Of a stretch of 64,000 nucleotides of DNA, positions 2,793-63,357 are shown piece after piece. Source of the stretch: Crocinitomicaceae bacterium TMED114 (GTDB lineage: Bacteria; Bacteroidota; Bacteroidia; Flavobacteriales_D; Sanyastnellaceae); contig NHFP02000003.1 in assembly GCA_002172485.2 (NCBI GenBank), positions 25,318 to 89,317 on the forward strand. The letters are read 5' to 3'. Each line of letters starts with the position of its first letter. Within the stretch, counting starts at the first letter, position 1. Made by a program: the position numbers and the translations under genes. The notes beneath the pieces were generated by a model. That model saw nothing but the letters and a program-made list of their open reading frames with translations. It searched no databases and was not told the DNA's origin.

Positions 2793-2800
2793 TACCTTTA
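2793..2800 (+). promoter_or_regulatory. -7 box (TACCTTTA) four bases before the E1 start
   Basis: TACCTTTA fits the Bacteroidota TAnnTTTG -7 element and ends four bases before the ATG at 2805. Transcription would start at or within a few bases of the start codon. No convincing -33 TTG was found. Confidence 0.45.
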
Positions 2801-2804
2801 CACC

Positions 2805-4883
2805 ATGGGTAAGAACTCTGGCAAGCGTTCCGAACAAGTCGATTCCTTGCTGAAGGATTGGGAACGCATGTGCACTGCGCGGGCCATGGCGGACCTTTAT
2901 GAGAGACACGCCAAACTGACCTCGAAGTATGTCCACGCTTGCGCCAATGGACACGAGGCCATTCAGATCGCCGCCGGAACCCGCCTTGGGCCCCAAGACT
3001 ATCTCTACGCGTACTACAGGGACGACGCCATCCTGCTCTCGCTGGGCATGACCCCGGAAGAGCTCATGCTCCAACTGTTCGCCAAAAAGACCGACCCCTT
3101 CAGCGGAGGACGCACCTATTATGGTCACCCTGCGCTCAAGCGGAACGGCTTCCCTCGAATTCCGCATAACAGTTCCGCCACGGGCATGCAAGCCATTCCG
3201 GCAGCTGGCGCTGCCATGGGGCTTCAATACCGCGAGAATCACGGGCTGGGACAAGAAGTGGAGGGCGACCACCCTCCGATGGTGCTCTGCTCGATCGGTG
3301 ATGCGGCCATGACCGAAGGCGAGGTGTCCGAGGCCCTGCACATGGCCACGCTGCGCCAACTGCCCATCCTGTTCCTCGTGCAGGACAATGAGTGGGACAT
3401 TTCAGCCCACAGCTCTGAAATCCGATTCGGAGATGCCACCGACTTCGCCAAAGGGTACCCGGGTCTCGAAACCCACTCTGTCGCTGGGCACGACCTGGCC
3501 GAAGCGCACGACGCAATGGACTGGGCCTTTCGTACCGTCCGGACCGAACGTCGACCGGTGCTGGTCCACGCCAAGGTCCCTTTGCTGGGGCACCACACCA
3601 GTGGCGTGCGGCGCGAGTGGTACCGAGACGACCTCGACGAGGCCAAACAACGGGACCCCCTCTCCCACTTGCGCGCGGCGTTGCTCCAAGCCGGGGTCAA
3701 GAAATCCGGCTTGAATGCCATTCAGGACGAATGCAGGGATCAGGTTGAAGCCGCTTTCCAACGGGCCCAAGCCGCTCCGGAACCCGACCCCGCCGACCTC
3801 CTTCCCACGGCGTTGGCACCGACTCCGGTGACCACTGAAACTGGACGAAGGGAAGGAGACGACACCGAGCCTCAAATCATGGTGGACCAAGCCTTGCACG
3901 CCATGTCCGAGGTGCTCGCGGCGGATGACCTCGCACTGTTGTACGGTCAAGACGTGGGCGGCCGACTCGGCGGCGTGTTCCGTGAGGCGGCCACCCTCGC
4001 CCAAAAGTTCGGCGACCACCGGGTCTTCAATACGCCCATCATGGAGGCCTTTATCGTCGGCAGCACAGTGGGTATGAGCGCTGTGGGGCTGAAGCCCATT
4101 GTCGAAATTCAATTCGCAGACTACCTCTGGCCTGGTCTGAACCAACTGTTCACCGAGCTGTCTCGCAGCCATTACCTCACCCACGGCCAATGGCCTGTAC
4201 ACAGCGTGATCCGGGTGCCCATCGGGGCGTATGGCTCTGGTGGTCCGTATCACAGCTCCAGCATCGAGAGCGTGTTGACTGCCATTCGCGGCATCAAGGT
4301 CGCCTACCCCAGTTGCGGTGCTGACTTAAAAGGGCTGCTCAAATCCGCCGTGGACGACCCCAATCCGGTGGTCGTTCTGGAGCACAAAGGCCTGTACTGG
4401 TCCAAAGTCCCCGGTACGGACGCCGCCAAGACGATCGAACCAGCAGAAGACTACCGTTTGCCTTTTGGAATGGCGAGGACAGTCCAGCCCTTGGGGGACG
4501 ACATCGGCACGGATTCCACGCTGGCCATCATCACCTACGGCCGCGGAGTCCATTGGGCACTGGAGGCCTCCAAGGCATGGCCCGGACGCGTGGAGATCTT
4601 GGACCTGCGAAGCTTGTCCCCTGTGGACGAGGCCGCCATCCTCGATAGCGCGGCCCGCTGTCACCGTTGTCTCGTGTTGACGGAAGAGCCCCCATTGGGC
4701 AGCTTCGCCCAGGCCCTCGCGGGCTTGATTTCGGACCGGGCCTTCGAACACCTCGACGCCCCAGTGCGCACGTTGGGCTCGATGGAGGTTCCCGCCATTC
4801 CGCTCAACGAGACCTTGGAAGCCGCCGTGTTGCCCAACGCTGAGAAGGTGGTTGCGGCGTGCCAGGAGCTCCTCGATTACTGA
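2805..4883 (+). CDS. 2-oxoacid dehydrogenase E1 component, fused alpha and beta subunits
   Basis: This is a 692-residue thiamine-diphosphate enzyme that decarboxylates a 2-oxoacid (pyruvate or branched-chain) and passes the acyl group to a lipoyl E2. Residues 1 to about 330 are the E1-alpha half, with the ThDP/Mg motif GDAAMTEGE near 165 and QDNEW near 194. Residues 350-692 are the E1-beta half, with TPIMEAFIVG, EIQFADY and the C-terminal transketolase domain (VLTEEPPLGSFAQAL). Most organisms encode the halves separately; single-chain fusions of this length are common in Bacteroidota. No E2 or E3 gene is adjacent, so the substrate cannot be told from context. The start agrees with the -7 box four bases upstream. 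Confidence 0.93.
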   Translation: MGKNSGKRSEQVDSLLKDWERMCTARAMADLYERHAKLTSKYVHACANGHEAIQIAAGTRLGPQDYLYAYYRDDAILLSLGMTPEELMLQLFAKKTDPFSGGRTYYGHPALKRNGFPRIPHNSSATGMQAIPAAGAAMGLQYRENHGLGQEVEGDHPPMVLCSIGDAAMTEGEVSEALHMATLRQLPILFLVQDNEWDISAHSSEIRFGDATDFAKGYPGLETHSVAGHDLAEAHDAMDWAFRTVRTERRPVLVHAKVPLLGHHTSGVRREWYRDDLDEAKQRDPLSHLRAALLQAGVKKSGLNAIQDECRDQVEAAFQRAQAAPEPDPADLLPTALAPTPVTTETGRREGDDTEPQIMVDQALHAMSEVLAADDLALLYGQDVGGRLGGVFREAATLAQKFGDHRVFNTPIMEAFIVGSTVGMSAVGLKPIVEIQFADYLWPGLNQLFTELSRSHYLTHGQWPVHSVIRVPIGAYGSGGPYHSSSIESVLTAIRGIKVAYPSCGADLKGLLKSAVDDPNPVVVLEHKGLYWSKVPGTDAAKTIEPAEDYRLPFGMARTVQPLGDDIGTDSTLAIITYGRGVHWALEASKAWPGRVEILDLRSLSPVDEAAILDSAARCHRCLVLTEEPPLGSFAQALAGLISDRAFEHLDAPVRTLGSMEVPAIPLNETLEAAVLPNAEKVVAACQELLDY

Positions 4884-4976
4884 GCCCATCCCGCCCCAGA
4901 GGACCTCAGGACCCGAAGCGGGCACGGAGGCGAGTTTCCGATGAACCTTCAAGGGACCTCGGATGTTTTTCTCTAG

Positions 4977-6050
4977 ATGCCGCAAACCCCCTCGGACTCA
5001 ACTGCTGCTTCAGCTCCGCTGAAAACCCACCCTTGCCACGTGCAACAGGTGCGGCGCCTGACGTCCGAAAGCGTCCTGGTCACTTTGGACCCAGGTGACG
5101 CCCTTCCTGCTTTCAGGCACGAACCTGGGCAACAGGTGACCTTCTGCTTGACCCTGTCGGAGCGCACCTGCTACCGCAGCTACAACTTGGTGAATTCACC
5201 TGAAGGCTTGCCCCAAGTCGCAGTCAAGCAAGTCGCCCGTGGTGGGGCCTCGCAGTTCTTTACGCGCGAACTCAAGCCAGGCGATGTGCTGCAGGTAGCG
5301 CCGCCAGAAGGCGACCTCTACCCTGCCCGTCTGGACGACGCACCGCACCACATGCTGCTGTTTGCTGCGGGCAGTGGGATTACCCCGCTGTACTCTGTGG
5401 CCCGACACGCCCTGCGCGCCCGACCCGATCACCGAGTAACCCTCTTTTACGCCAACCGCTCCACGCGCCATATCATGTTCCGCCGAGAACTCGATCAACT
5501 GGCGGTTTCACCCCGCTTGGAGGTCTTTCACATCCTCGGGGATGGGGGCACAGGCGATGCCAACAGCTCAGGCCGCCTCGATGCCGACCGCGTGGCCGGG
5601 CTCCTGGCCCAATTCGGCCACCCCAATATGGACGAATGCGCCTTTGTGAGCGGCCCTGAAGGATTCAAGGAAGCGGTCTTTGCCGGACTGCGCGACGCGG
5701 CTCCAATGCTGGAAGTCCGCGACTTCTGCTTCGGCCGGCAGCCCCACCGCCACCCGGAGGACCCCACGGACCACCGCCACGGCGTCAACATCCACATCGT
5801 CAAGGACGGGACGACACGACACATCCAAGGCGTACCGCGACACCTGACCCTGCTCGAAGCCGCGGACCGCGCTGGAGTGGAGGTACCGGCCGAGTGTCGT
5901 GGTGGCATTTGCCACCGTTGCAAAGCCAAACTGCTCGACGGGCGGACGGTCTCCGGGCCACGCGAATTGCAGCGCACCCCGCCGGCAGGGTACATCCTGT
6001 GCTGCCAGGAGCGCCCAGCGAGCGACGAAATCACCTTGGACCTCGGCTGA
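4977..6050 (+). CDS. Ferredoxin-NADP reductase-type flavoprotein with C-terminal 2Fe-2S domain
   Basis: The 357-residue protein has the PaaE/phenol-hydroxylase reductase order. An FAD-binding barrel (RSYNLVNSP near 62) is followed by an NAD(P)-binding domain (AAGSGITPLYS near 130) and a plant-type [2Fe-2S] domain near 300-345 with ligands in CRGGICHRC and a distal Cys in ILCCQ. It would move electrons from NAD(P)H through FAD to the cluster and on to an oxygenase or desaturase. No oxygenase lies nearby, so the partner is unknown. It begins 93 bases after the E1 gene. Its stop abuts the lolA stop exactly (TGA|TCA). Confidence 0.88.
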   Translation: MPQTPSDSTAASAPLKTHPCHVQQVRRLTSESVLVTLDPGDALPAFRHEPGQQVTFCLTLSERTCYRSYNLVNSPEGLPQVAVKQVARGGASQFFTRELKPGDVLQVAPPEGDLYPARLDDAPHHMLLFAAGSGITPLYSVARHALRARPDHRVTLFYANRSTRHIMFRRELDQLAVSPRLEVFHILGDGGTGDANSSGRLDADRVAGLLAQFGHPNMDECAFVSGPEGFKEAVFAGLRDAAPMLEVRDFCFGRQPHRHPEDPTDHRHGVNIHIVKDGTTRHIQGVPRHLTLLEAADRAGVEVPAECRGGICHRCKAKLLDGRTVSGPRELQRTPPAGYILCCQERPASDEITLDLG

Positions 6051-6731
6051 TCAGAACCGGTTGTCAATGACGGTCGTGCCGGGGTACTTGGCGGCGTCAA
6101 ACGTGAACGCCCCTTCGGGCACCAGCCCATTGCCTTCAAAGGACGCAATCCGGTACACCACATCGGTGCCCTCGCGCCCTTTGACAATCAGCTGAACCAC
6201 CTCCAGCTCCTCCGCATCGATGAAACACTGGATGGTGTGGAAACCTTTGTCCTCTGCGCCTTCTGGATGAAGGTCAATGCGGGTGAACGTCTCTCCGTCC
6301 AACGTGGCATCCCCTTTGAAGACCTTCTTGAATCCGTCCTCCCAGATGGTGAACATCTTGGCCGGGTCGATGCCGTCTTCGGCGATGACCTCCGCGTCAT
6401 CGATGTAGCATTCGCCCATCTCCGGCTCGTAGGTCCACACCGTCATGCCATCGCTGATGATGGTGTATTCCCCAAGCTGCAAATGGTAGCGCTCCCCTGC
6501 GACCCAGACCTCGCCCGCCTGCTCCATTTCGAAGTCGCTCTGGCGGTCGATCATCGTCGACACGTATTCCGCGTGGACCGTAGAATAGCCCTTCATGGCC
6601 GCACTGACCTCGGCCAATAGCGCATCAGCTGCCGGGTCAGACTGTGCCAAACTGCTCCAGGACAACGCACTGATGGACAGGACAAAAACCAAAGAAAGGC
6701 ACGCGGATGGCGTCGAAGTCAGACGGGTCAT
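6051..6731 (-). CDS. lolA: Outer-membrane lipoprotein carrier protein LolA-like
   Basis: A 226-residue periplasmic protein with a signal peptide (cleavage near SLAQ-SDP). The mature part follows the LolA fold: AEYVSTMIDRQ, GEVWVAGERYHLQLG, ISDGMTVWTYEPEMGE and a C-terminal DVVYRIASFEGN. LolA carries lipoproteins from the inner to the outer membrane. It lies 12 bases downstream of ftsK, an arrangement common in Bacteroidota, so it is probably cotranscribed. A TAATTTCG box spans the ftsK stop seven bases before this ATG and could also give a separate short transcript. Confidence 0.85.
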   Translation of the reverse strand: MTRLTSTPSACLSLVFVLSISALSWSSLAQSDPAADALLAEVSAAMKGYSTVHAEYVSTMIDRQSDFEMEQAGEVWVAGERYHLQLGEYTIISDGMTVWTYEPEMGECYIDDAEVIAEDGIDPAKMFTIWEDGFKKVFKGDATLDGETFTRIDLHPEGAEDKGFHTIQCFIDAEELEVVQLIVKGREGTDVVYRIASFEGNGLVPEGAFTFDAAKYPGTTVIDNRF

Positions 6732-6743
6732 GTGGGGGCGAAA

Positions 6744-9485
6744 TTACGCGGTGGGTTCTTCTTCAGAACCACTCCCACGCAACAACTGTTCCAAAGCCGC
6801 TTCATCCGGCACCAACACCTTGCGGGCCTTGGAGCCTTCGAAGGGGCCGATGATCCCCGCGGCCTCCAATTGGTCCACCAGGCGACCCGCCCGGTTGTAG
6901 CCCAACTTGAGCTTGCGCTGGAGCAACGAAGTCGAGCCTTGTTGGTGCAGGACCAGGATGCGGGCCGCCTCCTCGAACATGCTGTCCCGCTCCTCCTTGG
7001 AGATGTCCGCCATCTGTTCGCTGTGTTCGTCGGGGACCTCAGGCAGCATCAGCGCCTCGGGGTAGCCCCGCTGCGAGCCGATGAAGTCGGTGATGGCCTC
7101 CACCTCCGGGGTGTCGACAAAGCCGCATTGCAGGCGAATCAGGTCGTTGCCCGTAGACAGCAACATGTCACCCCGGCCGATGAGTTGGTCAGCGCCGCCG
7201 GCGTCGAGGATGGTTCGGCTGTCGACCTTGGAGGTCACGCGGAAGGCCACGCGGCCCGGGAAGTTGGCCTTGATCGTACCGGTGATGATGTTGACCGACG
7301 GACGCTGGGTGGCGATGATTAAGTGAATGCCAATGGCCCGCGCCAACTGTGCCAGGCGGGCGATGGGCATCTCCACCTCCTTGCCCGCGGTCATGATCAG
7401 GTCGGCGAACTCATCGATGACCAGCACGATGTAAGGCAGGTAGCGGTGGCCGTTCTCCGGGTTCAGCTTGCGCCGGACGAACTTGGCATTGTATTCCTTG
7501 AGGTTGCGGCACTGGGCGTTCTTGAGCAGCTCGTACCGCTGGTCCATCTCGAGGCAGAGTGACTTGATGGTGCGGACCACCTGGCTGTTGTCGGTGATGA
7601 TGGCTTCCTCAGTATCGGGCAGCTTGGCGAGGTAGTGGCGTTCGATGTGGTTGAAGAGGGTCAATTCCACCTTCTTCGGGTCGACCAGGACGAGCTTCAG
7701 CTGGCTCGGGTGCTTCTTGTAGAGCAGGGAGACCAGCATCGCATTGAGGCCAACCGACTTGCCCTGACCGGTCGCACCGGCCATGAGCATGTGCGGCATC
7801 TTGGCCAGATCGAAAACGTAAGTCTCGTTCGAAATCGTCTTGCCGATGGCAATGGGCAAGGCCGCATCGCTGTTCTGGAACTTGTCGCTGGCAATGAGCG
7901 AGCGCATGCTGACGATGTCCGGGTTGGAATTCGGCACTTCGATGCCGATGGTGCCGCGGCCCGGAATCGGCGCGATGATGCGGATTCCGAGGGCAGCAAG
8001 GCTGAGTGCGATGTCGTCCTCGAGGTTCTTGATCTTGGAAATGCGGACGCCGGGTGCCGGCACCAGCTCGTAGAGGGTCACTGTCGGCCCGATGGACGCC
8101 TTGATGCTCGCGATGTTGATGCCGTAGTTCTCGAGGGTGTCCTCGATGCGCTTCTTGTTGGCTTCGAGCTCCTCGGGACTCACCTCCGTCTTGCCCGAAC
8201 CGTGGGCAGCGAGGAGGTCAATGTTGGGCAATTCAAAGCGGCTGAGGTCCAGCGTCGGATCGTATTCCCCAAAAGCCTGCACCTTGGCGTCGATTTCATC
8301 CTCCGTGAGGGTGGCCTCCTCTTCGGCCACTTCCACCTCCATGGTGGTCGTGCTCTCCTCGGGTGCGGACACCGGGTCAGGCTCCTTCGCCACGACCGGC
8401 TCCGGCGCAGGTTCCGGCTCTGGAACAGGTTCTTGCTCGGGGAGCACTTCAGGTTCAGGCGTCACGGGCTCTGCCTCAGATTCTGGGGCAACATGCAGTG
8501 GCGTCTCGGCATCCGAACGGGGTTCGCCGTCCGGCGTCCCTTCCGAGGGATCGCCTTCCCAGCCGGTTTCTTCCTCTTTGGCCAACTCCCGGGCCGTCTT
8601 GTTGCGGGGACGCTCTGCCACTGCGGATCCCTCTTCTTCCCAAGCTTCTTCCCGGGCAAAGAAATCGCCAAGGAAAGTCGCGACGCCCGGCTGCAAAACG
8701 GCCCAGATGGTGTACCCGACCGTCAAGGCCAAAACGGATCCGAGCACGCCCAGGGTAAACCGGCTCCACTGCGTCAACCAGAGCCCCACGGCGCCCACGA
8801 CATGGTCGTCGCCCCACCCCGTGACCAGTCCGGTCTCCATGTCAAAGCTGAGCGTGAGCAGGCCCGCAGTCCAAGGAAGCAGAATGGCGGCCGCCAACAC
8901 GCTTCGGAAAGCGCGGCCCAGGGCGAGCGAACGCTGGGTGGCAAACTGTTGGGTACCGGCTGCCACGAGCCACACTCCGAACAAGGGTGCGGCGATGCCG
9001 AAGCCACCCCGCATGAAGGTGAAGGCCCAACGTGCCCCCAAGGCACCCAGCCAGTTGTGGTAGCTCCCTGCGCCCGGTGCGGTTTCCGTCAACAAGAGGC
9101 GGATGTCACCGCCGCCCACCACCAATGCGCTGACGCCTGCGAGGGCCATGAACCCTCCCAGGGCCATGGCCAGAATTCCAGAGATTTGCTTGAATCGCGG
9201 GTCTTGCAGCCACATCAGGCGGGCCTGCCAACGGGATTGGCGCTCTTCCCGCGCCTGCAACCGCTCAGCTCGGCGTGCCTCGCGTTGTCGTTGACGCTCC
9301 TCTTTGCGGTCTGAAGCCGTCACTTTGGACTTCCCCTTGCCCGATCCTTTCGGCTTCTTCGCCTTGGATGCCACTTTTTCCGCCACCATCACATCGTCAG
9401 CATTGAGCCTGCGGTTCCGGGGACGCGGCGCGGGCTTTGCCTTGGATCGCTTGGATCGGCGGGGCTTGGAGGAACTTTGCGACAT
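6744..9485 (-). CDS. ftsK: DNA translocase FtsK
   Basis: The 913-residue protein pumps DNA at the division septum and helps resolve chromosome dimers. A very basic N-terminal tail (about 100 residues, [12 protein letters not shown]) precedes four or five membrane segments (100-290). An acidic Glu/Pro-rich linker follows (290-400), then the motor. Walker A is GATGQGKS near 570, Walker [12 protein letters not shown] near 690, and a gamma winged-helix DNA-binding domain closes the chain ([20 protein letters not shown]). The start follows a TACTTTCG -7 box by five bases, with a TTG 22 bases upstream of the box, and no ribosome-binding site is visible. Confidence 0.96.
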
Positions 9486-9490
9486 TGCAT

Positions 9491-9498
9491 CGAAAGTA
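9491..9498 (-). promoter_or_regulatory. -7 box (TACTTTCG) five bases before ftsK
   Basis: On the minus strand TACTTTCG ends five bases before the ftsK ATG, with a TTG (possible -33) 22 bases upstream of it. The predicted transcript is essentially leaderless. Several other genes in the window share the geometry. Confidence 0.5.
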
Positions 9499-9579
9499 GG
9501 TGGACACCCTTCGCCGACGGCAAGTCCGACCTTTGCTTTTCCACAAGGAAGATTGGACGCCGGATTGGAAAGGAATCCC

Positions 9580-9587
9580 TATCTTTG
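9580..9587 (+). promoter_or_regulatory. -7 promoter box TATCTTTG of the rpmG operon
   Basis: TATCTTTG is an exact match to the Bacteroidota -7 consensus and lies 19 bases before the rpmG ATG. A TTG at 9553-9555 is a possible -33 element, although the 24-base spacing is long. It would drive rpmG, the DUF4295 gene, ftsY, rimO and queE. Confidence 0.55.
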
Positions 9588-9606
9588 CCCTCCATTTTCC
9601 CGGACC

Positions 9607-9789
9607 ATGGCGAAGAAAGGCAACCGCGTACAAGTCATCCTCGAGTGCACCGAGCACAAAGAATCGGGCATGCCCGGCACGTCCCGTTACGTCACGACGA
9701 AGAACCGCAAAAACACGCCAGAGCGCATCGAGTTGAAGAAGTACAACCCGATCCTCCGCAAGATGACGGTCCACAAGGAGATCAAGTAA
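9607..9789 (+). CDS. rpmG: 50S ribosomal protein bL33
   Basis: The 60-residue protein has the bL33 pattern: [18 protein letters not shown], then [20 protein letters not shown] and a basic C-terminus. It binds 23S rRNA near the E site. The first strand reads VILECTEH and the later zinc-type CxxC is absent, so this is the zinc-free form. The start is the ATG directly before AKKGNR; upstream in-frame codons belong to non-coding sequence. In many Bacteroidota rpmB precedes rpmG; here ftsK lies divergently upstream instead. Confidence 0.97.
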
Positions 9790-9806
9790 TCCCGAACTGA
9801 TACACC

Positions 9807-9959
9807 ATGGCTAAGAAGACCGTCGCATCGCTCCAAAAAGGAGGAGGTAAGCAGCACACCATGTGCATCAAGATGTACAAGAGCCCCAAGACGGGCGCCT
9901 ACGCCTTCCGCCAGGAAGTCGTTCACAACGACGAAGTCAAGGCTTGGTTCGCGAACTGA
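9807..9959 (+). CDS. DUF4295 family small basic protein
   Basis: This 50-codon protein (MAKKTVASLQKGGGKQHTMC, ending AYAFRQEVVHNDEVKAWFAN) matches the short DUF4295 family found between rpmG and ftsY in Bacteroidota. It begins 17 bases after rpmG. The constant position beside a ribosomal protein gene and the basic composition suggest a ribosome-associated role, but no function is established. It is easily missed because of its length. Confidence 0.9.
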   Translation: MAKKTVASLQKGGGKQHTMCIKMYKSPKTGAYAFRQEVVHNDEVKAWFAN

Positions 9960-10038
9960 ACCTTTTGACCTGATGCCCACAGGGCGCACGAGGGCCGTCT
10001 TCCACACCCGGAGGCCGGCCCTCGTTGCGTCCGCCCCT

Positions 10039-10046
10039 TATCTTCC
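10039..10046 (+). promoter_or_regulatory. Possible -7 box (TATCTTCC) five bases before ftsY
   Basis: TATCTTCC partly fits TAnnTTTG and ends five bases before the ftsY ATG. It may give an internal leaderless promoter within the ribosomal-protein/ftsY operon. Confidence 0.3.
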
Positions 10047-10051
10047 ACCAC

Positions 10052-21728: not shown

Positions 21729-21736
21729 CGAAGGTA
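21729..21736 (-). promoter_or_regulatory. -7 box (TACCTTCG) five bases before mnmH
   Basis: TACCTTCG on the minus strand ends five bases before the mnmH ATG, the same geometry as at ftsK. This predicts a leaderless mnmH-selD transcript. Confidence 0.45.
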
Positions 21737-22321: not shown

Positions 22322-22354
22322 GCCTCAATGTACCCTTTTTGCCTGAAAATCAAA

Positions 22355-25655: not shown

Positions 25656-25663
25656 CAAAGATA
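25656..25663 (-). promoter_or_regulatory. -7 box (TATCTTTG) four bases before the CotH-protein start
   Basis: This exact TAnnTTTG match on the minus strand ends four bases before the ATG at 25651. It is one of the clearest leaderless-type promoters in the window. Confidence 0.55.
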
Positions 25664-27838: not shown

Positions 27839-27846
27839 ACAAGGTA
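27839..27846 (-). promoter_or_regulatory. -7 box (TACCTTGT) four bases before the propeller gene
   Basis: TACCTTGT on the minus strand ends four bases before the ATG at 27834, fitting the leaderless pattern. Confidence 0.4.
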
Positions 27847-29666: not shown

Positions 29667-29765
29667 GGGGCAAAAATTAGAATGATTCCAACCAACTTCC
29701 AACCCTTGGCGGCGATCATCCTGATTGGCACTCAGGCGCCTGCATTCAAAAGGCGCAGGGGAGAA

Positions 29766-29796: not shown

Positions 29797-29800
29797 GATG

Positions 29801-29873
29801 TCGGGACAGCAGGACTCGAACCTGCGATCTCCTGCTCCCAAAGCAGGCGCCTTACCAACTGGGCCATGTCCCG
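29801..29873 (-). tRNA. tRNA-Pro (TGG)
   Basis: The 73-nt gene folds into a full cloverleaf. Acceptor CGGGACA pairs with TGTCCCG, the anticodon stem is CCTGC/GCAGG with loop TTTGGGA (anticodon TGG), and the T arm is GCAGG-TTCGAGT-CCTGC. The discriminator base is A and no CCA is encoded. Confidence 0.97.
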
Positions 29874-29968
29874 AGCGGGCGGCGAAGATACAACACTTCT
29901 TCGCCCGCCCGGACCATGAATCCACCCGGTTGTGTGCCAGGTCAAAGAGCACCCAAGAGCCGGATGCG

Positions 29969-32639: not shown

Positions 32640-32644
32640 CGTTG

Positions 32645-32729
32645 CGGAGAGACCGAGATTCGAACTCGGGGACCAAAAATATCGGTCACAGCTTAGCAGG
32701 CTGCTGCATTACCACTCTGCCACCTCTCC
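32645..32729 (-). tRNA. tRNA-Ser (GCT)
   Basis: The 85-nt class II tRNA has acceptor GGAGAGG/TCTCTCC and anticodon stem CAGC/GCTG with loop CTGCTAA (anticodon GCT). It has a long variable arm (GACCGATATTTTTGGTC) and T arm CCGAG-TTCGAAT-CTCGG. Discriminator G, as usual for serine. Confidence 0.97.
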
Positions 32730-32889
32730 ATTTTCGCATTCCCTTCGGAAAGTGGACCGCGAATTTACGGAAAACCTGTCGGTGATGGGCAATGGACTTC
32801 TCAGAAAGCACTTCCGTACCGGCGATGAGCGAACTGTGGACCACGCACACAAACTCCCGACCAAAAAGCCATAAACTGTCGTTTCCTCA

Positions 32890-50150: not shown

Positions 50151-50186
50151 GGTGCAAGGTGTTGGTTGGGTTGGGGATGCTGTCGA

Positions 50187-50984: not shown

Positions 50985-51106
50985 GCCCTGAATGTAAGAA
51001 ACCTCCTACTCTTCTCATCCGGCAATCTGATAAGTCCAACCATTAATCCGTTGAAAATCAGAAGGCATTCTGTAAATCAGGGCTTTCCTGTGAATACATT
51101 GCTCGC

Positions 51107-53574: not shown

Positions 53575-53640
53575 GCGGGAATTGGCCGCAAAGGTCCGAC
53601 CGGAAGCGGGGATTTCACCCCGGCATCCCGAAAGTTCCCA

Positions 53641-54093: not shown

Positions 54094-54142
54094 CGTGATG
54101 GAGGTTGATTGACACATTATACCCCCTTCTCCAACGCAGGGT

Positions 54143-54150
54143 TACATTGC
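54143..54150 (+). promoter_or_regulatory. -7 box (TACATTGC) three bases before the DUF1028 gene
   Basis: TACATTGC ends three bases before the ATG at 54154, again predicting a leaderless transcript. Confidence 0.4.
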
Positions 54151-54153
54151 CGC

Positions 54154-55170: not shown

Positions 55171-55234
55171 CCCTGAATGCGCGGGAGCTGAACCAACCCG
55201 CCCAAAAAGGGGTAATTTTAATGAAGCTGTTTCC

Positions 55235-57289
55235 ATGATCCGTACCCACCTCCTGCTCCTGACCACGTGTCTGCTGTTGACCAGCGCTTTGCTCCAATCC
55301 CAGACTCCCTGCGTGGACGGTTTTGCCGGTATCTACCCGTGTGATCAGGTCGACCTGATGTCCCAGTTGGGTCCCGATGAAGTGGGAGGCGGAGAAATGA
55401 ACGACATCTGGGGCTGGACCGATCCGCTGGACGGCAAAGAATACGCCCTCTTGGGACGCACCAACGGCACGGCATTCATCGATGTGTCCGACCCGGTCAA
55501 TCCGGTCTACCTCGGTGACCTGCCCACCCACACCGTGTCGTCCTTCTGGCGAGACATCAAAGTCTTCGACAACCACGCCTTCATCGTCTCCGAAGCGTCC
55601 AGCCATGGCATGCAGGTGTTTGACCTGACCCAACTCCGCGATGTGGCCAACCCACCCCAAACTTTTGTTTCCGACGCCCACTATGCCGGATTCGGTGGCG
55701 CGCACAACATCGCCATCAACGAGGAAACCGGCCGGGGATATGTCATCGGGGCCAACACCTTCTCGGGTGGCCTGAACATTCTCGACCTCAACAATCCGCT
55801 CAACCCGACCCTGATCGGCAGCTTCGCAGAAGACGGATACTCCCACGATGTCCAAGTCGTCAACTACATCGGCCCAGATGCCGAATACGGGGGAAAGGAA
55901 ATTGCCTTCTGCTTCAACCTGAATGCCGTCACCATCGTGGATGTGACGAATGCGGATGATCCCAACCTCATCAGCTCGCAAGGCTATTCCACTTCCGCCT
56001 ATACCCACCAGGGATGGCTGACCGAGGACCACAAGTTCCTCCTCGTGGGGGACGAACTCGATGAAGGGTCGGTCAATACCCGCACCTACATTTTCGATGT
56101 ACAGGACCTCGACAATCCGACGCTCATTGGCACCCACGTCGGCACCACACCGGCCATTGACCACAACCTCTACACCCACGACGGGTACGTCTACCAGTCC
56201 AACTACCGCGCAGGACTTCAAATCCTGGATCTGGCCAATGTGGCACAGGGGCAGTTGGAGCAGGCCGCCTATTTCGACGTCTATCCCGCTTCGAATTCCG
56301 CCCAGGACAATGGATCGTGGAGCAACTACCCCTACTTCGCGTCGGGCATTGTCATTGTCAGCCACATCGAAGACGGCCTGTTCGTGGTCCAGCCCAATAT
56401 CGCGCCGCCTTGCCTCGAGGACTGCGGCTGTACCGACGAAACGGCCTGCAACTACGATGCCGCTGCCATCAACGATGACGGCACCTGTGACTTCAGCTGC
56501 TACGGTTGTACCGACCAGAACGCCTGCAACTACGACCCTGGCGCCACCATCGACGACGGCTCTTGCGAAGCCCCCAATCCGCAGTTTGGCTGCGAATGCT
56601 CCATCTCAGGCAGCTTCGTGGCGACCTTGGAAGGCTCAGAAACCAGCGCACCCAGCGAAGTGGATGGCATTGCCAATCCCGCTGCATCCACCATCGATCT
56701 CTCCGTCAACTTCACCGGATCAGGTGGCAGTTGGGTAGGCGACATGGTCATGACGGTCACGGATGGCTCTGGCAACTGCATCGCATTCGGCGGATACAAC
56801 GACACGCCCCCAGGCTGCCCATCGCTGGGCTACTACCAGACGATATGGCCCTCCAACTGGGCCACTGCTGGCGACGGCGTCTACACTGCCACAGTGAACT
56901 TGTCTGACGAGGGCCTGGACGGAAGCGGCACATGGAGTGTGGCCGTGTTCAATGGGTGGAACAACGCCAGTGCGGTCACCTACGATGTGTCGTGGACCCT
57001 CAGCGATGTCTGTGCCGACTTGAGCGAGCCCGACATTTCGGGTTGCACCGATCCGGAAGCGACCAACTACAATCCCGCAGCCACGTTGGACGATGGATCG
57101 TGCCAGTTTCCGGCCCCCTGTCCCGGCGACTTTGATGGCAATGGCGTCATCGCGGTCAACGACGTTCTGGTCGCACTGGGCGACTTCGGATGCGCCGGCG
57201 TCTGCACGGCCGACTTGGATGGCGACGGGGTGGTCGGGGTCACTGACATCCTGAACATGCTGGCCCAGTTCGGACAGCCATGTGACTGA
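55235..57289 (+). CDS. Choice-of-anchor-B/LVIVD propeller protein with dockerin-like tail
   Basis: The 684-residue exported protein (signal MIRTHLLLLTTCLLLTSALL) starts with an LVIVD-type propeller of the choice-of-anchor-B family (EMNDIWGWTDPLDGKEYALL, TAFIDVSDPVNPVYLGDLPT, GGLNILDLNNPLNPTLIGSF). Two 21-residue Cys motifs follow near 395-440. Then comes a beta-sandwich like a proprotein-convertase P domain (WVGDMVMTVTDGSG, ATVNLSDEGLDGSGTWSVAV), a third Cys motif, and a double dockerin-like tail (GDFDGNGVIAVNDVLVALGD, DLDGDGVVGVTDILNMLAQF). The family is known for varied C-terminal anchors. The ATG at 55235 is used. Confidence 0.88.
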   Translation: MIRTHLLLLTTCLLLTSALLQSQTPCVDGFAGIYPCDQVDLMSQLGPDEVGGGEMNDIWGWTDPLDGKEYALLGRTNGTAFIDVSDPVNPVYLGDLPTHTVSSFWRDIKVFDNHAFIVSEASSHGMQVFDLTQLRDVANPPQTFVSDAHYAGFGGAHNIAINEETGRGYVIGANTFSGGLNILDLNNPLNPTLIGSFAEDGYSHDVQVVNYIGPDAEYGGKEIAFCFNLNAVTIVDVTNADDPNLISSQGYSTSAYTHQGWLTEDHKFLLVGDELDEGSVNTRTYIFDVQDLDNPTLIGTHVGTTPAIDHNLYTHDGYVYQSNYRAGLQILDLANVAQGQLEQAAYFDVYPASNSAQDNGSWSNYPYFASGIVIVSHIEDGLFVVQPNIAPPCLEDCGCTDETACNYDAAAINDDGTCDFSCYGCTDQNACNYDPGATIDDGSCEAPNPQFGCECSISGSFVATLEGSETSAPSEVDGIANPAASTIDLSVNFTGSGGSWVGDMVMTVTDGSGNCIAFGGYNDTPPGCPSLGYYQTIWPSNWATAGDGVYTATVNLSDEGLDGSGTWSVAVFNGWNNASAVTYDVSWTLSDVCADLSEPDISGCTDPEATNYNPAATLDDGSCQFPAPCPGDFDGNGVIAVNDVLVALGDFGCAGVCTADLDGDGVVGVTDILNMLAQFGQPCD

Positions 57290-57310
57290 GCCTCTTGTAG
57301 ACCGGGCAGC

Positions 57311-58063
57311 TTACAGAATGCCCAGAACCAGCACGACCAGCAGGACAATCCCCACGTACAGCGCGATGGGGGCCAAGGGCGCAAAAGAAAGGATGCGGCC
57401 TGCCTTGGACAACCGGTAGCGCGGGTACAAATCTGGGTGTTCCAAGGATGCGCGATAGGCTTTTCGGGAGAGGATAAACCCGGCGATGGACGCAATCAAA
57501 CCGGCCACGATGGGCACTCCGCTCAGGGGCATCTGCAGGTAACCCACCGCCGCCTCACCGATCAGGCCGAACAGCCACCCCAAGGACAGGACGAACCCTG
57601 GTACTGAAGCAGGATGCCGCCCCTCAATGGGTTCGGGCAATACCTCCGTGACCCGCAAGGCACTGGGTGCGACGACAGGGCCCACCAAGGTGCACGCCTG
57701 CCGCGGCGTCAATCTGGCTGGCGGCTGCCGTTTGTGCTGCGGTTGAGGCTGTGTTGCGGAGGTTTCGACAAGAGCGATCAGCGCCTTCGAGGCTTCGAGG
57801 CTTGTCTTCATGGCATTTGGCTTGCCCAGTCCCACTGTGAAGTCGGCTTCCGACACATGGACACTGGCACTCAACTCTCCGTCTCGGGGAGCCAGGCTGG
57901 ACTGCACTTCGCGTGGTTGTTGCCGGGGTGCATCGTGGCGCGCCTGGACATGCCAGCCGTGCCGGTAGCGACGCGACTCGATGAAGGATTCGCCCAGCCG
58001 CTTTTCCTGGGCACAGCCCGTCCACATCACAACGGACAAAAGAAGCAACCACCGAAAGTTCAT
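57311..58063 (-). CDS. Lipoprotein with C-terminal membrane segments, unknown function
   Basis: The 250-residue protein begins MNFRWLLLLSVVMWTGC, a short lipoprotein signal. A hydrophilic region of about 140 residues rich in Arg, Pro and Gln follows, then three hydrophobic helices (PGFVLSLGWLFGLIGEAAVG, GVPIVAGLIASIAGFILSRK, LAPIALYVGIVLLVVLVLGI). DUF4190-like or similar small helix bundles are possible, but no family is secure. It converges on the choice-of-anchor-B gene with a 21-base gap. Confidence 0.72.
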   Translation of the reverse strand: MNFRWLLLLSVVMWTGCAQEKRLGESFIESRRYRHGWHVQARHDAPRQQPREVQSSLAPRDGELSASVHVSEADFTVGLGKPNAMKTSLEASKALIALVETSATQPQPQHKRQPPARLTPRQACTLVGPVVAPSALRVTEVLPEPIEGRHPASVPGFVLSLGWLFGLIGEAAVGYLQMPLSGVPIVAGLIASIAGFILSRKAYRASLEHPDLYPRYRLSKAGRILSFAPLAPIALYVGIVLLVVLVLGIL

Positions 58064-58076
58064 GGAACCAAGCTAG

Positions 58077-58223
58077 CCGAATTCAGCGGATCAATTGGAC
58101 CACTCCGGTCCTGACATCTCGGACATTGCACTTTCCCTGGGCTTCCAACCGCCAAGCGATGGAGACGTCGATGTCGCAGATGGCCTTCAAATCCTGGGCG
58201 CCTTCGCCAACGTCTGCAACTGA
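58077..58223 (+). pseudogene. Orphan dockerin-like tail remnant
   Basis: The plus-strand frame after a TAG at 58074-58076 has 48 codons without an ATG. It reads DHSGPDISDIALSLGFQPPS, then DGDVDVADGLQILGAFANVC and N-stop. This matches the double dockerin-like tails at the ends of secreted proteins in this window (DGDGVVxVxDILxxLxxFGxxC). The rest of any parent gene is absent and neighbouring genes run on the opposite strand, so it is best read as a gene fragment left by deletion. Confidence 0.55.
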
Positions 58224-58224
58224 A

Positions 58225-60804
58225 TCACATCGACGGGCCGAGAAAGACGGCGTTGTCGAAGAAGCGGTGGCCGGACTTCCAGAAGGCTCGGAAGAGCGGG
58301 TTGTCGACGAGATAGACGACGCTGCCCCGGCCCATGGAATGGACGCCCGCGACCAGCGACCCCGTTTGGGCGGGAATGACCATCTCACCGGCATGGCCGC
58401 TGAACGGCCGGCCCTGTTCGCCGGGCGGCAGCACGGCCACGTTGCCCTCCTCGAGGGCGGCATAACGGCGGCCTGAGGTGCGCAAGGTCATGTATTCGCT
58501 GCCATAGCCGTCGGCCAACGGGTGACTCTCGTCCACGGCCGCGCGGAAGATGGCGCCCGGCAGGTCATAGCGAAGGCCATCGCGCGCCAAATCGGTGAAC
58601 GGAATCGGGTCGAGTCCCTGAGCGGCCCGGTCATGGGCGTTGCGCTCATCGGCCGCCTCCTGGACGGCGTCTTCGGCCGCCTCGATGGCGGCCCGTTCTC
58701 CCTCCGCGTAGCGTTGGAGGCCCCAGCCGTCCTGACCGACAAAGGCACTGCAGGCACCGCCGACGGCCACAAGCTGGCCGCCACCGCGCACCCAAGTGGC
58801 GAGTTCGGACCGTTCGTCCTCGTCCATTCGGTACCAGCCGCTCGGCAAAACGACCACGTCGAGGTTGTCGAGGTCGAGGTCCTCTAGCGCCCCCATCCGA
58901 TTCAGCGGATAGCCCAACTTCGTCTCGAAGTGATGCCAGATCTCTCCGGCGCTCAAGGAACTCACTCCGGGCCCAACGATTGTGGCAACCCGCGGCGCCT
59001 GAATGGCGTCGTAATGGCTGCTGCCGAAATCGTAGCCGCTCGTCACCCGGCCCGAGCTCACGGCTTGCACCGCTGCGCCCGCAGCTTGGGTGGCCCGCTC
59101 CAAGGCGCCCGTCATGTCGGCCACCCCTTCGTTGTTGCGGCGGGTGATCACGAAATCTCCGGCCGCAAACACGAGGCCATCGACCGTGAACCCGGTGTCG
59201 GCACGGCGCACGGTCACCCCATCTTGGAGCAAGGATGCCAAGCCGCGCGCGGCATTGGCCCCGCTGCCCGGCAGCACCCAGGCGTAAGGCTGTGCCCGGT
59301 CGTCAGGGAGCCGCGACACCGTGGCGACACCCCATTCGCCGTCGGTCTCCAGCGGCGACGTCAAGGCATAGGCCTCGAGGCCCATGGCATGTGGCAGGGC
59401 CCACGCGGTGATGTCGTAGGTCATGCTGTCCGACAGCACGGGGTCCGGATCCATCAGCACCTGCAGGATACCGCTGTGCGGCTGCCGGGCATCGATGAGC
59501 AGGTCGCCGGCCCGCACGGTGCGCTTGGTGATCCGTCCTTTGGCGTAATCGAGGCAGCGCACCCCCGAGGCGGCCGAAGCGGCGCCGTATTCGATGCCGT
59601 TCGCGTCAAGGAGGCGCAACAGCTCGGTGAACTTGGCGTCGTCTTGGCCCGCCGGGAAGACATAGCCGACGTAATCTCCGAACGGTTCCTCGATGTTGCG
59701 GCGATGGTAGTCCGCAAACTCGCGCACGAGCTGATCGGCTTTGGCCACACTTTCCTCGACCGCACTCAGGCCCGACTCGTGGTGGTTCTGGATGCGGTAG
59801 GACAAGGTCAAAACGTCACCGAGGCGCGTCGTCGCCGCCCGGCCCGCCCGGCCGCTGCCGCCTTGCTCGTAGGTCATGCCGATGGCGCCGTTGTACAGCG
59901 GCCAGGTGTCGCCATAGGCAGGGTAGAACAGATCGAACACCTCGCGGGTGAAGTACAAGGCACCGCGGGCATCAAACCACCGGGCGTTGTTGGCCCCGAT
60001 GTGCTCCTGGCATTTGCGCTGCCATGGGCTGATGATCTTGTGGAACGGTTCTGCAGCGGGTGCGAAGTAGTAAGGTGAATTGATCCCCTGTTCGTGGAAG
60101 TCGACGTGGACCTGTGGCATCCAGTTGCGGTACGCCGTCACCCGGCCCTGGGTCTCCACTTGCGTTTGCCATGCCCAGTCGCGGTTCATGTCGAACATGA
60201 AGTGGTTGCTTCGCCCGCCTGGCCATGGCTCATCGTGTTCTACCGTGCTCAGATCTTCATTGGGAATCAAACCGGACGTGCGGTCCTGGAAGGCCACATA
60301 GCGGTCGCGTCCATCGGGGTTCACGCAGGGGTCAATGAGGACCACCGCCCGATCGAGCCATGTGGTCACATCGCGTCCGCCGGCATCGGTCCCGGACACC
60401 AACGCGTGCATCGTACGCAACGCCGCCTCGGTGCAAACCGCCTCGTTGCCGTGAACATTGTAGCTGAGGTAGACGAAGACCACCCCAGGGTCATCCCCTG
60501 CCAGTCCTGTTCCTTCGGTGCGCGCCAGGTTGGCTGCCCGCAGCGCCTCCAAATTGGCATGGTTGTCCGGCGAAGTCACCACGAGCAACCCCAGATCCCG
60601 GTATTCCGAGGTCCGTCCGTATGGCGTCCACACCGCCCGGTCCGACCCCTCAGCCAGCAGTTGGGCGTAATCGACCACCTTGTGGTGGCGGGGGAAACGG
60701 TCGCCCAGCTCGTATCCGAGAAACTCTGCGGGAGTGGGCACTTGGGCCGTGGCCACGGCGATGGCGGCGACCAGAAGGGCCGCTGCGGACAGGATGGATT
60801 TCAT
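58225..60804 (-). CDS. Secreted M14-family zinc carboxypeptidase
   Basis: The 859-residue exported peptidase (MKSILSAAALLVAAIAVATA) has the M14 zinc ligands: His and Glu in NVHGNEA near 117 and His in VHVDFHEQG near 232. DPCVNPDGRDRY supplies the conserved substrate-binding segment. After the catalytic domain (to about 350) comes a long region with a glutamine-amidotransferase-like domain (VVVLPSGWYRMDEDERSELA, VRGGGQLVAVGGACSAFVG). M14 proteins with this extension are common in Bacteroidota. It starts 13 bases after the endonuclease stop and is probably cotranscribed. Confidence 0.92.
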   Translation of the reverse strand: MKSILSAAALLVAAIAVATAQVPTPAEFLGYELGDRFPRHHKVVDYAQLLAEGSDRAVWTPYGRTSEYRDLGLLVVTSPDNHANLEALRAANLARTEGTGLAGDDPGVVFVYLSYNVHGNEAVCTEAALRTMHALVSGTDAGGRDVTTWLDRAVVLIDPCVNPDGRDRYVAFQDRTSGLIPNEDLSTVEHDEPWPGGRSNHFMFDMNRDWAWQTQVETQGRVTAYRNWMPQVHVDFHEQGINSPYYFAPAAEPFHKIISPWQRKCQEHIGANNARWFDARGALYFTREVFDLFYPAYGDTWPLYNGAIGMTYEQGGSGRAGRAATTRLGDVLTLSYRIQNHHESGLSAVEESVAKADQLVREFADYHRRNIEEPFGDYVGYVFPAGQDDAKFTELLRLLDANGIEYGAASAASGVRCLDYAKGRITKRTVRAGDLLIDARQPHSGILQVLMDPDPVLSDSMTYDITAWALPHAMGLEAYALTSPLETDGEWGVATVSRLPDDRAQPYAWVLPGSGANAARGLASLLQDGVTVRRADTGFTVDGLVFAAGDFVITRRNNEGVADMTGALERATQAAGAAVQAVSSGRVTSGYDFGSSHYDAIQAPRVATIVGPGVSSLSAGEIWHHFETKLGYPLNRMGALEDLDLDNLDVVVLPSGWYRMDEDERSELATWVRGGGQLVAVGGACSAFVGQDGWGLQRYAEGERAAIEAAEDAVQEAADERNAHDRAAQGLDPIPFTDLARDGLRYDLPGAIFRAAVDESHPLADGYGSEYMTLRTSGRRYAALEEGNVAVLPPGEQGRPFSGHAGEMVIPAQTGSLVAGVHSMGRGSVVYLVDNPLFRAFWKSGHRFFDNAVFLGPSM

Positions 60805-60817
60805 GATGCGATCAGTT

Positions 60818-62275
60818 TCAGAGACAGGCAGTCCCGAACACCCCCAAGATAGCGAGCATGTCTGCTGCGGTCACGAGTCCGTCCCCGTTGATGTCGGCAA
60901 CGCAATCCGACAAACAGCCGAAGTTTCCAAGGAGGTACAACACATCGCTCACTGCCACCACACCATCCCCATCGAAGTCGGCGGGGCAGACGTCTTCATC
61001 CACAACACCTTCGCAAGTGTCGCAATCTTCGAAAACGTCGCCGACGGTGAGGGGATCTCCATCGTCGCAAGGGTCGCCCACGAAGATGCAAGAGCCGTCG
61101 TTCATGTTGGCGGTAGGGTCGTAGTTGCAGGCTGAACTGGAGGTGCACCCCTCCACAGGGATGGGCGTGCCGACGCACCCGAAGTCCACATCGCTGCAGT
61201 CGGTCAATGCGTCATTGAAAGTGGTCGCGTCCCCGTCATCGCAAGGGTCACCCTCGAAGACGCAACTGCCATCATTCTGCGTGGCGGCCGGGTTGAAGTT
61301 GCAGGCAGAGCCCGCAGTACAGCCGGGAACGACCACAGGCTGACCTTGACAACCGTAGCCCGGGGCATCACAATCCGTGTAGTAGTCGTTCATGGTGGCG
61401 GGATTCCCATCGTTGCAAGGGTCCCCTTCGAAGACACAACTGCCATCGCTAACCGTGGCCTCCAGGTCATAATTGCAGGCCAATCCCGATAGGCAACCCG
61501 GGACGTCCGTGGGCGGCTCCCAAAACCAGGCATCGTACACCCACTCAGGATGGTCGATGTAGGGATTGCGGTTGCCTTGCGCCACCTCCGTGCGGTTGTT
61601 GCGGACCACCTCTTCCGGGCTCACCGGATCATCGAGGTGCCATTGGTACAAGATGTCGGGATCGCCGACATCCGCCAGTACCCCCGCCTGCGTCGGGTAC
61701 ATGGTGTAGAAGTAAAAGACGCTCCGGGCCACATCGCCCTTGACCGACTCTCGGGGCTCCCAAGAACCGCTCGACCCTTCACTGAAATTGGCCGCGTTGG
61801 ACGGTATCGAACCGGTGCTGAAATAACTTCCTGAGGTTGTCACGCCGTACCACTGTGCGCTGCCGTCCGGTACTTCCGCATAGGGCTTGTTGCTCCGGGC
61901 GGAATTGGCCGATCCATGGCACGGGCGAATGGACCAGATGTCCGACTTCATCGGCGAAGCAGACTCGTAAAAGGATTGGGGAACGAGGTGTTCCGCATTG
62001 ATGGGATTGGGGTAGGTCACAAACCCGCTGCCCTGTTGGAACCCCGTGTAGATGCACTCGATTTCTCCGCCATCCGCGTCCACATACCCGTACATCTGGA
62101 TGCGCGCCTGGTTGTACCCCAAGTCGTCGAAATACCCGTCGTACCAGTTCGCCTTGATCCACGTCCGAAGCGGCGAAAGGGTCAATCCACCGGCATCGTC
62201 GGGCTGGGCCACTGCCGTGGGAATGAAGGCCAAAGCCAGCCCCAGGACGAGAAAAAAAGAACGCATTGGATGCAT
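60818..62275 (-). CDS. Secreted endonuclease I with Cys-motif repeats and dockerin-like tail
   Basis: The 485-residue exported protein has an EndA-type nuclease domain at about 30-230: LRTWIKANWYDGYFDDLGYN, YTGFQQGSG, the catalytic AEHLVPQSFY (His), DIWSIRPCHGSANSARSNKP (metal-binding Asn) and SVKGDVARSVFYFYTMYP. It would cut extracellular DNA or RNA. Three tandem units of about 65 residues follow, each with the 21-residue Cys motif and a GDPCDDGD segment. A double dockerin-like tail closes it (DFDGDGVVAVSDVLYLLGNF, DINGDGLVTAADMLAILGVF). A TAGCTTCA box ends four bases before the ATG at 62275. Confidence 0.92.
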   Translation of the reverse strand: MHPMRSFFLVLGLALAFIPTAVAQPDDAGGLTLSPLRTWIKANWYDGYFDDLGYNQARIQMYGYVDADGGEIECIYTGFQQGSGFVTYPNPINAEHLVPQSFYESASPMKSDIWSIRPCHGSANSARSNKPYAEVPDGSAQWYGVTTSGSYFSTGSIPSNAANFSEGSSGSWEPRESVKGDVARSVFYFYTMYPTQAGVLADVGDPDILYQWHLDDPVSPEEVVRNNRTEVAQGNRNPYIDHPEWVYDAWFWEPPTDVPGCLSGLACNYDLEATVSDGSCVFEGDPCNDGNPATMNDYYTDCDAPGYGCQGQPVVVPGCTAGSACNFNPAATQNDGSCVFEGDPCDDGDATTFNDALTDCSDVDFGCVGTPIPVEGCTSSSACNYDPTANMNDGSCIFVGDPCDDGDPLTVGDVFEDCDTCEGVVDEDVCPADFDGDGVVAVSDVLYLLGNFGCLSDCVADINGDGLVTAADMLAILGVFGTACL

Positions 62276-62279
62276 CTAA

Positions 62280-62287
62280 TGAAGCTA
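62280..62287 (-). promoter_or_regulatory. -7 box (TAGCTTCA) four bases before the endonuclease start
   Basis: TAGCTTCA on the minus strand lies in the 17-base gap after the peroxidase gene and ends four bases before the ATG at 62275. Confidence 0.35.
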
Positions 62288-62292
62288 CGACA

Positions 62293-63315
62293 TCACGGCC
62301 TCCAACGCGCATCGCCGACGAAAGCGGTGTCATTGAGCGCTGCCAGAAAGGCCAACAAATCTGCCCTTTGGACGTCGGTCAAGGAGAAAGGCGTCAGCAA
62401 GGTGTCCTGGTGCGCATGTCCAGCTCCTCCCGTGGCGTAGTGATCGATCACATCGCCGAGGCTGTCGAACCGGCCGTCGTGCATGTAAGGTGCAGTGAAC
62501 CCGATGTTGCGCAACGTCGGAATCTTGAAGGCCCCACTGTCTGCAGGCTCGCCCGTCAGCCGCCAGCGTCCCGGATCGATGGAGACCGCGTCCAATCCAT
62601 TGTTGGCGAACCCATGGCTGGTGAACATGGGGGGCGTGTGGCAACGGGCACAGTCCAGCCCACCTTCACCGAACAGGTCCGCCCCGCGCAGGACCGCCTC
62701 GGGCGCGGTGGCCAGGCCACGCTGCCAATGATCCCACAGGGCGTTGCCGCTGAGTAGGCTGCGCTGAAACGTGGCCAGAGCGCGGGTCATGACGAATGGA
62801 TCGAGTCCACGGCCATACGCGGCTTGGGCTTGCACGTCGTAGTCCGCCGCCAATTCCTCACAGGCGGTCACAATGTTGTGCGCCATCTCGGACGGCTCCT
62901 GGAGGGGCACCAACACTTGCATCTCCAAGGTTGGCACGCCCCCTTCCGACATGAAATGCGGTTGGTAAGCCGCATTGGTGAGGGTGGCCGCATTGCGCGC
63001 TCCCATGGCGCCGAAAGCGCCAGGTGTCACGGGCTCAGGCGCACTAAACGCTCTCTCTGGCAAGTGGCATGTGGCGCAACTCACCTCGCCGTCTGCCGAA
63101 AGTCTGGGGTCAAAAAACAGCGCCCGCCCCAGGGCCCAACGGAGGTCATCTGGCGCATTGTCCTCCGGAAAATCGGGAGTTGACCAACCTTCGGGGACCT
63201 GCAAGAAATCCGCGAATTCAGGGACAGGCGGACTTGGGGGCGTTTTCAAACACCCTACCAAGGCCACCACGCAGCCAATCATGGCTACCCATGTCCTCAT
63301 GTCCCTGACCTTCAT
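62293..63315 (-). CDS. Dihaem cytochrome c peroxidase (CcpA/MauG family)
   Basis: The 340-residue exported protein has two c-haem sites, CATCH near 80 and CARCH near 220. It shows the family blocks ALGRALFFDPRLSADGEVSC, RNAATLTNAAYQPHFMSEGG, FKIPTLRNIGFTAPYMHDGR (the second-haem Met region) and VIDHYATGG. It reduces hydrogen peroxide in the periplasm or belongs to the wider MauG group. A CVVALVGC segment gives a possible lipobox. ATG 63315 is used because a CATATTTG box ends five bases upstream; ATG 63300 would give a tighter lipoprotein signal. Confidence 0.92.
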   Translation of the reverse strand: MKVRDMRTWVAMIGCVVALVGCLKTPPSPPVPEFADFLQVPEGWSTPDFPEDNAPDDLRWALGRALFFDPRLSADGEVSCATCHLPERAFSAPEPVTPGAFGAMGARNAATLTNAAYQPHFMSEGGVPTLEMQVLVPLQEPSEMAHNIVTACEELAADYDVQAQAAYGRGLDPFVMTRALATFQRSLLSGNALWDHWQRGLATAPEAVLRGADLFGEGGLDCARCHTPPMFTSHGFANNGLDAVSIDPGRWRLTGEPADSGAFKIPTLRNIGFTAPYMHDGRFDSLGDVIDHYATGGAGHAHQDTLLTPFSLTDVQRADLLAFLAALNDTAFVGDARWRP

Positions 63316-63357
63316 TGGCACAAATATGGAACCTGCTGAGGGGATGGAAAGTTGCGC

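Follow-up and report, generated by a model that had tools for sequence, protein, structure and literature searches.

Translation in the Bacteroidota usually begins on leadered messenger RNAs (mRNAs) without regard to Shine-Dalgarno (SD) sequences, and how start codons are chosen in this SD-less phylum is still debated. Promoters of the sigma-ABfr type carry a TAnnTTTG element with transcription starting 4–5 nt past this box, and in three reports the mRNAs made from them are leadered (PMC7366714, PMC9723704, PMC6847099). In these reports, the -7 box of Flavobacterium psychrophilum spans -12 to -5, its leaders average 65 nt and 5.5% of its transcripts are leaderless (PMC9723704); leaders average 52 nt in Bacteroides thetaiotaomicron, with about 3.7% of 5′ untranslated regions (UTRs) shorter than 10 nt (PMC7366714), and 33 nt in Flavobacterium johnsoniae, where 87% of leaders exceed 10 nt (PMC6847099). 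The TA-led genes of Actinobacteria and Deinococcus-Thermus, as described by Zheng et al. 2011, have a promoter element some 12 bp upstream of the start codon, from which a large share of genes is predicted to lack a 5′ UTR; their method could miss Bacteroidetes, yet the authors thought high percentages there unlikely (PMC3160421). Here we analyse a 64,000-nucleotide stretch (hereafter the window) of Crocinitomicaceae bacterium TMED114, a metagenome-assembled genome (MAG), in which octamers resembling the Bacteroidota -7 box directly adjoin ATG start codons. This differs both from the leadered mRNAs of the sigma-ABfr systems and from the TA-led genes, whose element is a sigma-70 TANNNT. Taken as a whole, the data are best explained by -7 boxes that abut the AUG, and they very probably reflect leaderless mRNAs in the clade to which this genome belongs.

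The source genome comprises 1.73 Mb in 10 contigs and is 67.6% complete; the window lies on contig C2, its GC content ranges from 60 to 66%, and the closest named relatives by FtsY are MAGs labelled Flavobacteriales bacterium (85–90% identity). Gene starts came from our own codon-usage caller with a minimum gene score of 25 (motif search, C at -1), 18 (in-frame module, tRNA matrix, divergent pairs) or 12 (shuffles, counts with the tRNA matrix), so totals vary between analyses. The earlier note on this DNA had proposed profiling box distance against shuffled upstream regions; run on about one quarter of the genome (a 434-kb sample made up of the window and loci L001–L019), the profile shows an excess of boxes 3–7 bases before ATG. 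Of the window's 48 called genes with an ATG start, 13 have a TANNTT that ends within this interval (shuffle mean 0.52, maximum 3), and so do 52 of 320 genes in the sample (mean 2.66, maximum 9); 1000 rounds of dinucleotide shuffling, applied to the upstream 60-mers, did not attain the observed count in either case. The bare pattern, counted over the whole genome, gives a more modest excess, with 112 occurrences of TANNTT-N6-ATG versus 70 of the reversed pattern and 66 of TANNTT-N7-ATG versus 50. Searching the 45 bases ahead of 274 starts de novo, with position left free, recovered TAncTTng with its mass at -12/-13 and a log-likelihood of 148.7, compared with 18.2–25.4 in 10 mononucleotide-shuffled sets that were given fewer restarts. 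The box–ATG module is in frame at 59 of 189 first genes, and the two wrong frames yield 4 and 2. The corresponding GTG pattern, TANNTT-N6-GTG, is less frequent than its reversed control in each of the 24 genomes (32 versus 154 in this genome), although in coding DNA this control is unlikely to be a fair comparison.

All eleven octamers listed in the earlier note read as given and end 3–7 bases from the ATG of a long frame. On the plus strand they precede genes for a dehydrogenase E1/transketolase-like protein (TACCTTTA, 2793..2800, 4 nt before ATG 2805), FtsY (TATCTTCC, 10039..10046, 5 nt before ATG 10052) and a DUF1028 protein (TACATTGC, 54143..54150, 3 nt before ATG 54154). On the minus strand they precede genes for a LolA-like protein (TAATTTCG, 6739..6746, 7 nt before ATG 6731), FtsK (TACTTTCG, 9491..9498, 5 nt before ATG 9485), a rhodanese-domain protein (TACCTTCG, 21729..21736, 5 nt before ATG 21723), a Kazal-domain protein (TACATTGA, 22325..22332, 3 nt before ATG 22321), a CotH-domain protein with a Por secretion tail (TATCTTTG, 25656..25663, 4 nt before ATG 25651), a PQQ-repeat protein (TACCTTGT, 27839..27846, 4 nt before ATG 27834), endonuclease I (TAGCTTCA, 62280..62287, 4 nt before ATG 62275) and a di-haem cytochrome c peroxidase (a weaker box, CATATTTG, 63321..63328, 5 nt before ATG 63315). 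FtsY is so named from a match to the signal recognition particle (SRP)-type GTPase, and the other ten assignments have Pfam support. Ten of the eleven fit TANNTT; CATATTTG lacks the first T. The list was also incomplete, as TANNTT-N6/7-ATG occurs before four further frames: an esterase (TAATTTTT, 29672..29679 (-), 5 nt before ATG 29666), a Fib_succ_major-domain protein (TACATTCA, 50989..50996 (-), 4 nt before ATG 50984), a 163-aa protein with no Pfam match (TACATTGC, 51095..51102 (+), 4 nt before ATG 51107) and a 250-aa frame with no Pfam match that our first gene calling missed (TAGCTTGG, 58068..58075 (-), 4 nt before ATG 58063).

The same box is found at genes that have no start codon. In the window, TATCTTCG lies upstream of tRNA-Pro (gene 29800–29873; box 29883..29890 (-)) and TAAATTCG upstream of tRNA-Ser (gene 32644–32729; box 32760..32767 (-)), and 23 of the 32 tRNA genes examined (34 in the genome) have an octamer scoring at least 9.4 bits under a matrix derived from the ATG genes, mostly TATCTTTG, TATCTTCG, TAAATTCG or TATATTTG. 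The tRNA boxes read TA(T/A)(C/A)TT(C/T)G, in line with the sigma-ABfr -7 element, and the boxes of ATG genes are looser at positions 7–8. A separate TAnnTTGY class, like SM5 of F. psychrophilum, was considered and dropped because the counts were too small. The 27 tRNA promoters show only a trace of a -33 element (T14, T9, G13 at -22..-20 from the box start). They share a GC-rich stretch, approximately CSSYCC, after the box (window 29874–29890 (-) and 32752–32767 (-); L170–L199), which brings to mind stringently controlled stable-RNA promoters.

A matrix built from 25 tRNA octamers, picked with the ATG-derived matrix and so not fully independent of it, matches at -14..-11 in 51 of 163 transcription-unit-first genes of the sample, where a control of 8.0 is expected (far controls average 4-wide windows between -110 and -63). 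Near boxes occur at first genes about 2.6 times as often as at operon-internal ones (Fisher p 1.6e-4), and the background-subtracted leaderless share is 54% of first genes with a placeable promoter and 26% of all first genes. Four other samples from the clade gave 22/85 (26%), 29/119 (24%), 5/23 (22%) and 10/38 (26%) for first genes and 6/53, 11/68, 4/34 and 5/41 for internal genes (pooled 66/265 versus 26/196, p 0.002), and in each of the five clade samples more first genes have their box at -14..-11 than in any other window, narrowly so in G025 (5) and G028 (10 versus 8). G027, from outside the clade, has such a box at 8 of 56 first genes. The same procedure applied to loci of named Flavobacteriaceae and Weeksellaceae, which all surround ftsY so that orthologues recur, found 35/587 against a control of 26.6, a share of 5.5%, with the main mode at -46..-23. 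In a separate count, near boxes stood at 25/269 first genes of Weeksellaceae-type loci (far control 11.5) and at 9/314 of Flavobacteriaceae-type loci (12.6). We rejected the Weeksellaceae, whose anti-SD is altered, as a second leaderless group, since the 26 near boxes listed from 26 of their loci represent about 7 distinct genes, 12 of the boxes coming from a single gene. In Chryseobacterium, a gene whose product starts MKSLKVVFLGTPEFA, which we take to be fmt, has a TATCTTTG-N4-ATG module in 12 loci (L089, L106, L109, L111, L114, L116–L118, L122, L124, L125 and L127).

Divergent genes offer a further view of the boxes. At six places, drawn from the genome-wide pattern matches because both strands match, start codons 30–77 bp apart each have a box of their own, and three of these pairs are 30–39 bp apart. 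Divergent pairs closer than 60 bp make up 8 of 48 in the sample when non-overlapping (10 of 48 in another count that included overlaps) and 3 of 96 in the named loci.

We envision that the octamers are -7 elements of Bacteroidota-type promoters placed 4–5 nt upstream of the start codon. A box at -12/-13 leaves 4 or 5 nt before the ATG, matching the spacing from box to transcript start described for F. psychrophilum (PMC9723704), and given that the box of that species spans -12 to -5 the transcript would begin at the A of the AUG or a few bases away, in keeping with the start proposed in the earlier note. About one quarter of first genes, and about half of those with a placeable promoter, would yield leaderless mRNAs with the others short-leadered, and the ribosome and initiator tRNA would initiate on the 5′-terminal AUG. 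The box geometry supports leaderless mRNAs for part of the genes only. The prediction of widespread leaderless mRNAs gains support from the sharp excess, its spread through the genome sample, the preference for first genes, retention of the box in genus orthologues of three of the genes and concentration in one clade.

This concentration emerges from the ratio of TANNTT-N6-ATG to its reversed pattern. The ratio is 1.73 in genus g1 (17 genomes), 2.30 in g3 (4), 2.47 in g10 (2), 3.05 in g13 (1), 1.38 in g5 (3) and 1.14 in g14 (3); it exceeds 1.1 in 30 of 30 clade genomes and is at least 1.2 in 26. Among 70 other relatives it exceeds 1.1 in 14 and is at least 1.2 in three (G099, G019 and G047). 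The phylum set comprises 295 genomes, two of them shared with the relatives; 7 have a ratio above 1.2 and 2 a ratio above 1.5, the median is 0.89, and the measure is therefore conservative. When the comparison is restricted to the 44 phylum genomes whose control counts are just as low, the median is 0.78 and none but G210 and G233 passes 1.5. A tree of FtsY groups g1, g3, g5, g10, g13 and g14 together with the long-branched f12 (support 0.993), a one-gene tree in which long branches could aid grouping and on which the clade boundaries were drawn after tree and ratios were known; the same tree puts f2, f3 and f7 among the family's genera. As judged from sequence, the surplus of boxes falls mainly within a single clade of an uncultured Flavobacteriales family. 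G047, of family f12, has a long FtsY branch within the clade grouping and a ratio of 1.20. G210 and G233, of family f35, have ratios of 1.60 and 1.56 (their genus mate G241, 0.94), and G210 has a near box at 9 of 57 first genes versus a control of 3.2; these two genomes could possibly be an independent leaderless case.

Individual boxes can be followed within the genus. The ftsK box reads TACTTTCG, TAATTTCG or TATTTTCG at constant distance in 14 of the 14 rows shown from nine genus genomes. A near box precedes ftsY in 11 of 11 genus genomes (at -15 in G005) and in g5 and g10, and FtsY starts on the identical residue in 37 of 40 genomes. The lolA-like gene has a box in five of five genus loci, at varying distance from the ATG, and none in three loci from outside the genus; the E1 gene has a near box before ATG in two of five genus loci. 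The single relative of the endonuclease I gene, from outside the clade, lacks a box, and the remaining six listed genes have no relatives among the loci compared.

Several points weigh against leaderless mRNAs from these boxes. Operon-internal genes of the sample also show an excess (14 of 117 at -14..-11, control 3.8), and in G018 first and internal genes do not differ significantly (29/119 versus 11/68, p 0.20; internal control 1.3). A second, broad group of boxes at -34..-15 is leadered in the same genome. Near boxes also occur away from tight divergent pairs: they stand at 8 of 16 starts with gaps below 60 bp and at 14 of 42, 2 of 16 and 8 of 22 starts with wider gaps. With the box at -13, a ratio above 1.1 is reached by only 18 of the 24 clade genomes and two fall below 1, and the near box of ftsY is absent in g3, g13 and g14. 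No -33 element was found upstream of 59 strong near boxes, which for this reason we do not file as sigma-ABfr promoters; in F. johnsoniae, too, the -33 motif is described as much less evident (PMC6847099). The starts come from a home-made caller and the other clade samples gave 22–26%, we infer the transcription start sites at boxed genes from sequence, and at single genes longer transcripts from upstream may exist.

Some of these points would suit a motif that sets the context of translation initiation in leadered mRNA (AT-rich and either Kozak-like or S1-binding) and is not a promoter: the internal excess, which is strongest in G018, the failure to find a -33 element, and a preference for C at -1 before ATG that first (67%) and internal (63%) genes share. 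The figures for this base in the named loci are 18% and 8%, and it is a start context of this lineage, perhaps partly of GC origin; we dropped it as specific evidence of a transcription initiator, operon-internal starts showing nearly equal frequency. A translation signal is nevertheless an unlikely source of the boxes, as it fits neither their presence at tRNA genes nor their enrichment at first genes in this genome, nor the two divergent copies that lie between start codons 30 bp apart. The boxes could also be real but secondary promoters, with the main transcripts beginning upstream and leaderless forms minor. Leadered boxes at -34..-15 in the same genome and the leadered box of rpsU, retained in the clade loci read, are compatible with such an arrangement, which we regard as quite unlikely given that -14..-11 is the fullest first-gene window throughout the clade samples, that the ftsK, ftsY and lolA-like boxes are conserved in the genus and that tight divergent starts leave little room. 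There is a negligible prospect that the excess is an artefact produced by base composition or by the calling of starts: the examples were initially chosen by eye, the genome is a MAG with home-made starts and TANNTT is conspicuous at 62% GC, but the shuffles, the wrong frames, the low-control phylum genomes and the common FtsY start residue all speak against it.

The predicted leaderless mRNAs of this clade are accompanied by a change at the 16S rRNA end, with which other bacteria locate start codons. A 16S-end pattern, which larger changes would escape, was matched by 11 of 114 family genomes. The anti-SD core is CCUCC in all eight matching genomes from outside the clade and altered in all three from within it (Fisher p 0.006): ACUCC in G012 (g1) and G080 (g14) and UCUCC in G062 (g5). 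These changes may be one evolutionary event. The three loci read show the usual 16S–tRNA-Ile–tRNA-Ala order; an attempt to place the G012 16S contig by its flank was abandoned because the flank piece is 23S-like and uninformative. No 16S gene was found in the window's own genome (67.6% complete), and the altered ends belong to other species of the clade. Scored against Pfam, ribosomal protein bS21 reaches 51.3–57.9 bits in 18 genomes of the clade and 60.6–68.8 bits in 10 non-clade genomes, and the same search gave no match in the clade genome G070. By eye, no SD precedes rpsU in 18 clade loci; in 10 non-clade loci there is mostly none, an evident GGAGG being present only in G024. In many clade loci (L247–L264) a CCAATTTT-like stretch, with no evident SD, follows the rpsU promoter box, and similar CCATTT-like stretches lie upstream of rpsU outside the clade. 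Chryseobacterium and related Flavobacteriia without a CCUCC anti-SD likewise have an altered 16S 3′ end; there the core is UCUCA and a matching SD precedes rpsU (PMC6107228, PMC10783764, PMC9976891), whereas the three clade genomes above have ACUCC or UCUCC, and the clade shows no SD by eye in the rpsU loci read and near boxes in excess.

Leaderless mRNAs on this scale would be unusual for the phylum. The mapped Bacteroidota transcriptomes compared are leadered, and among the titles and abstract openings searched, most subscription papers being outside reach, none describes a Bacteroidota group with mainly leaderless mRNAs. We propose tentatively, at slightly under even chances, that one Flavobacteriales clade shifted from leadered, SD-blind initiation to mainly leaderless mRNAs and that, with this, the anti-SD core of its 16S rRNA and the constraint on bS21 decayed, giving a leadered-to-leaderless series within a single family; the leaderless mRNAs would then be causally linked to the anti-SD change. 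If true, a change in rRNA would be tied to a genome-wide change in mRNA architecture inside one family. Gene starts and promoter models would be corrected for many MAGs, and the clade would provide a natural test of whether loss of SD use leads to leaderless initiation.

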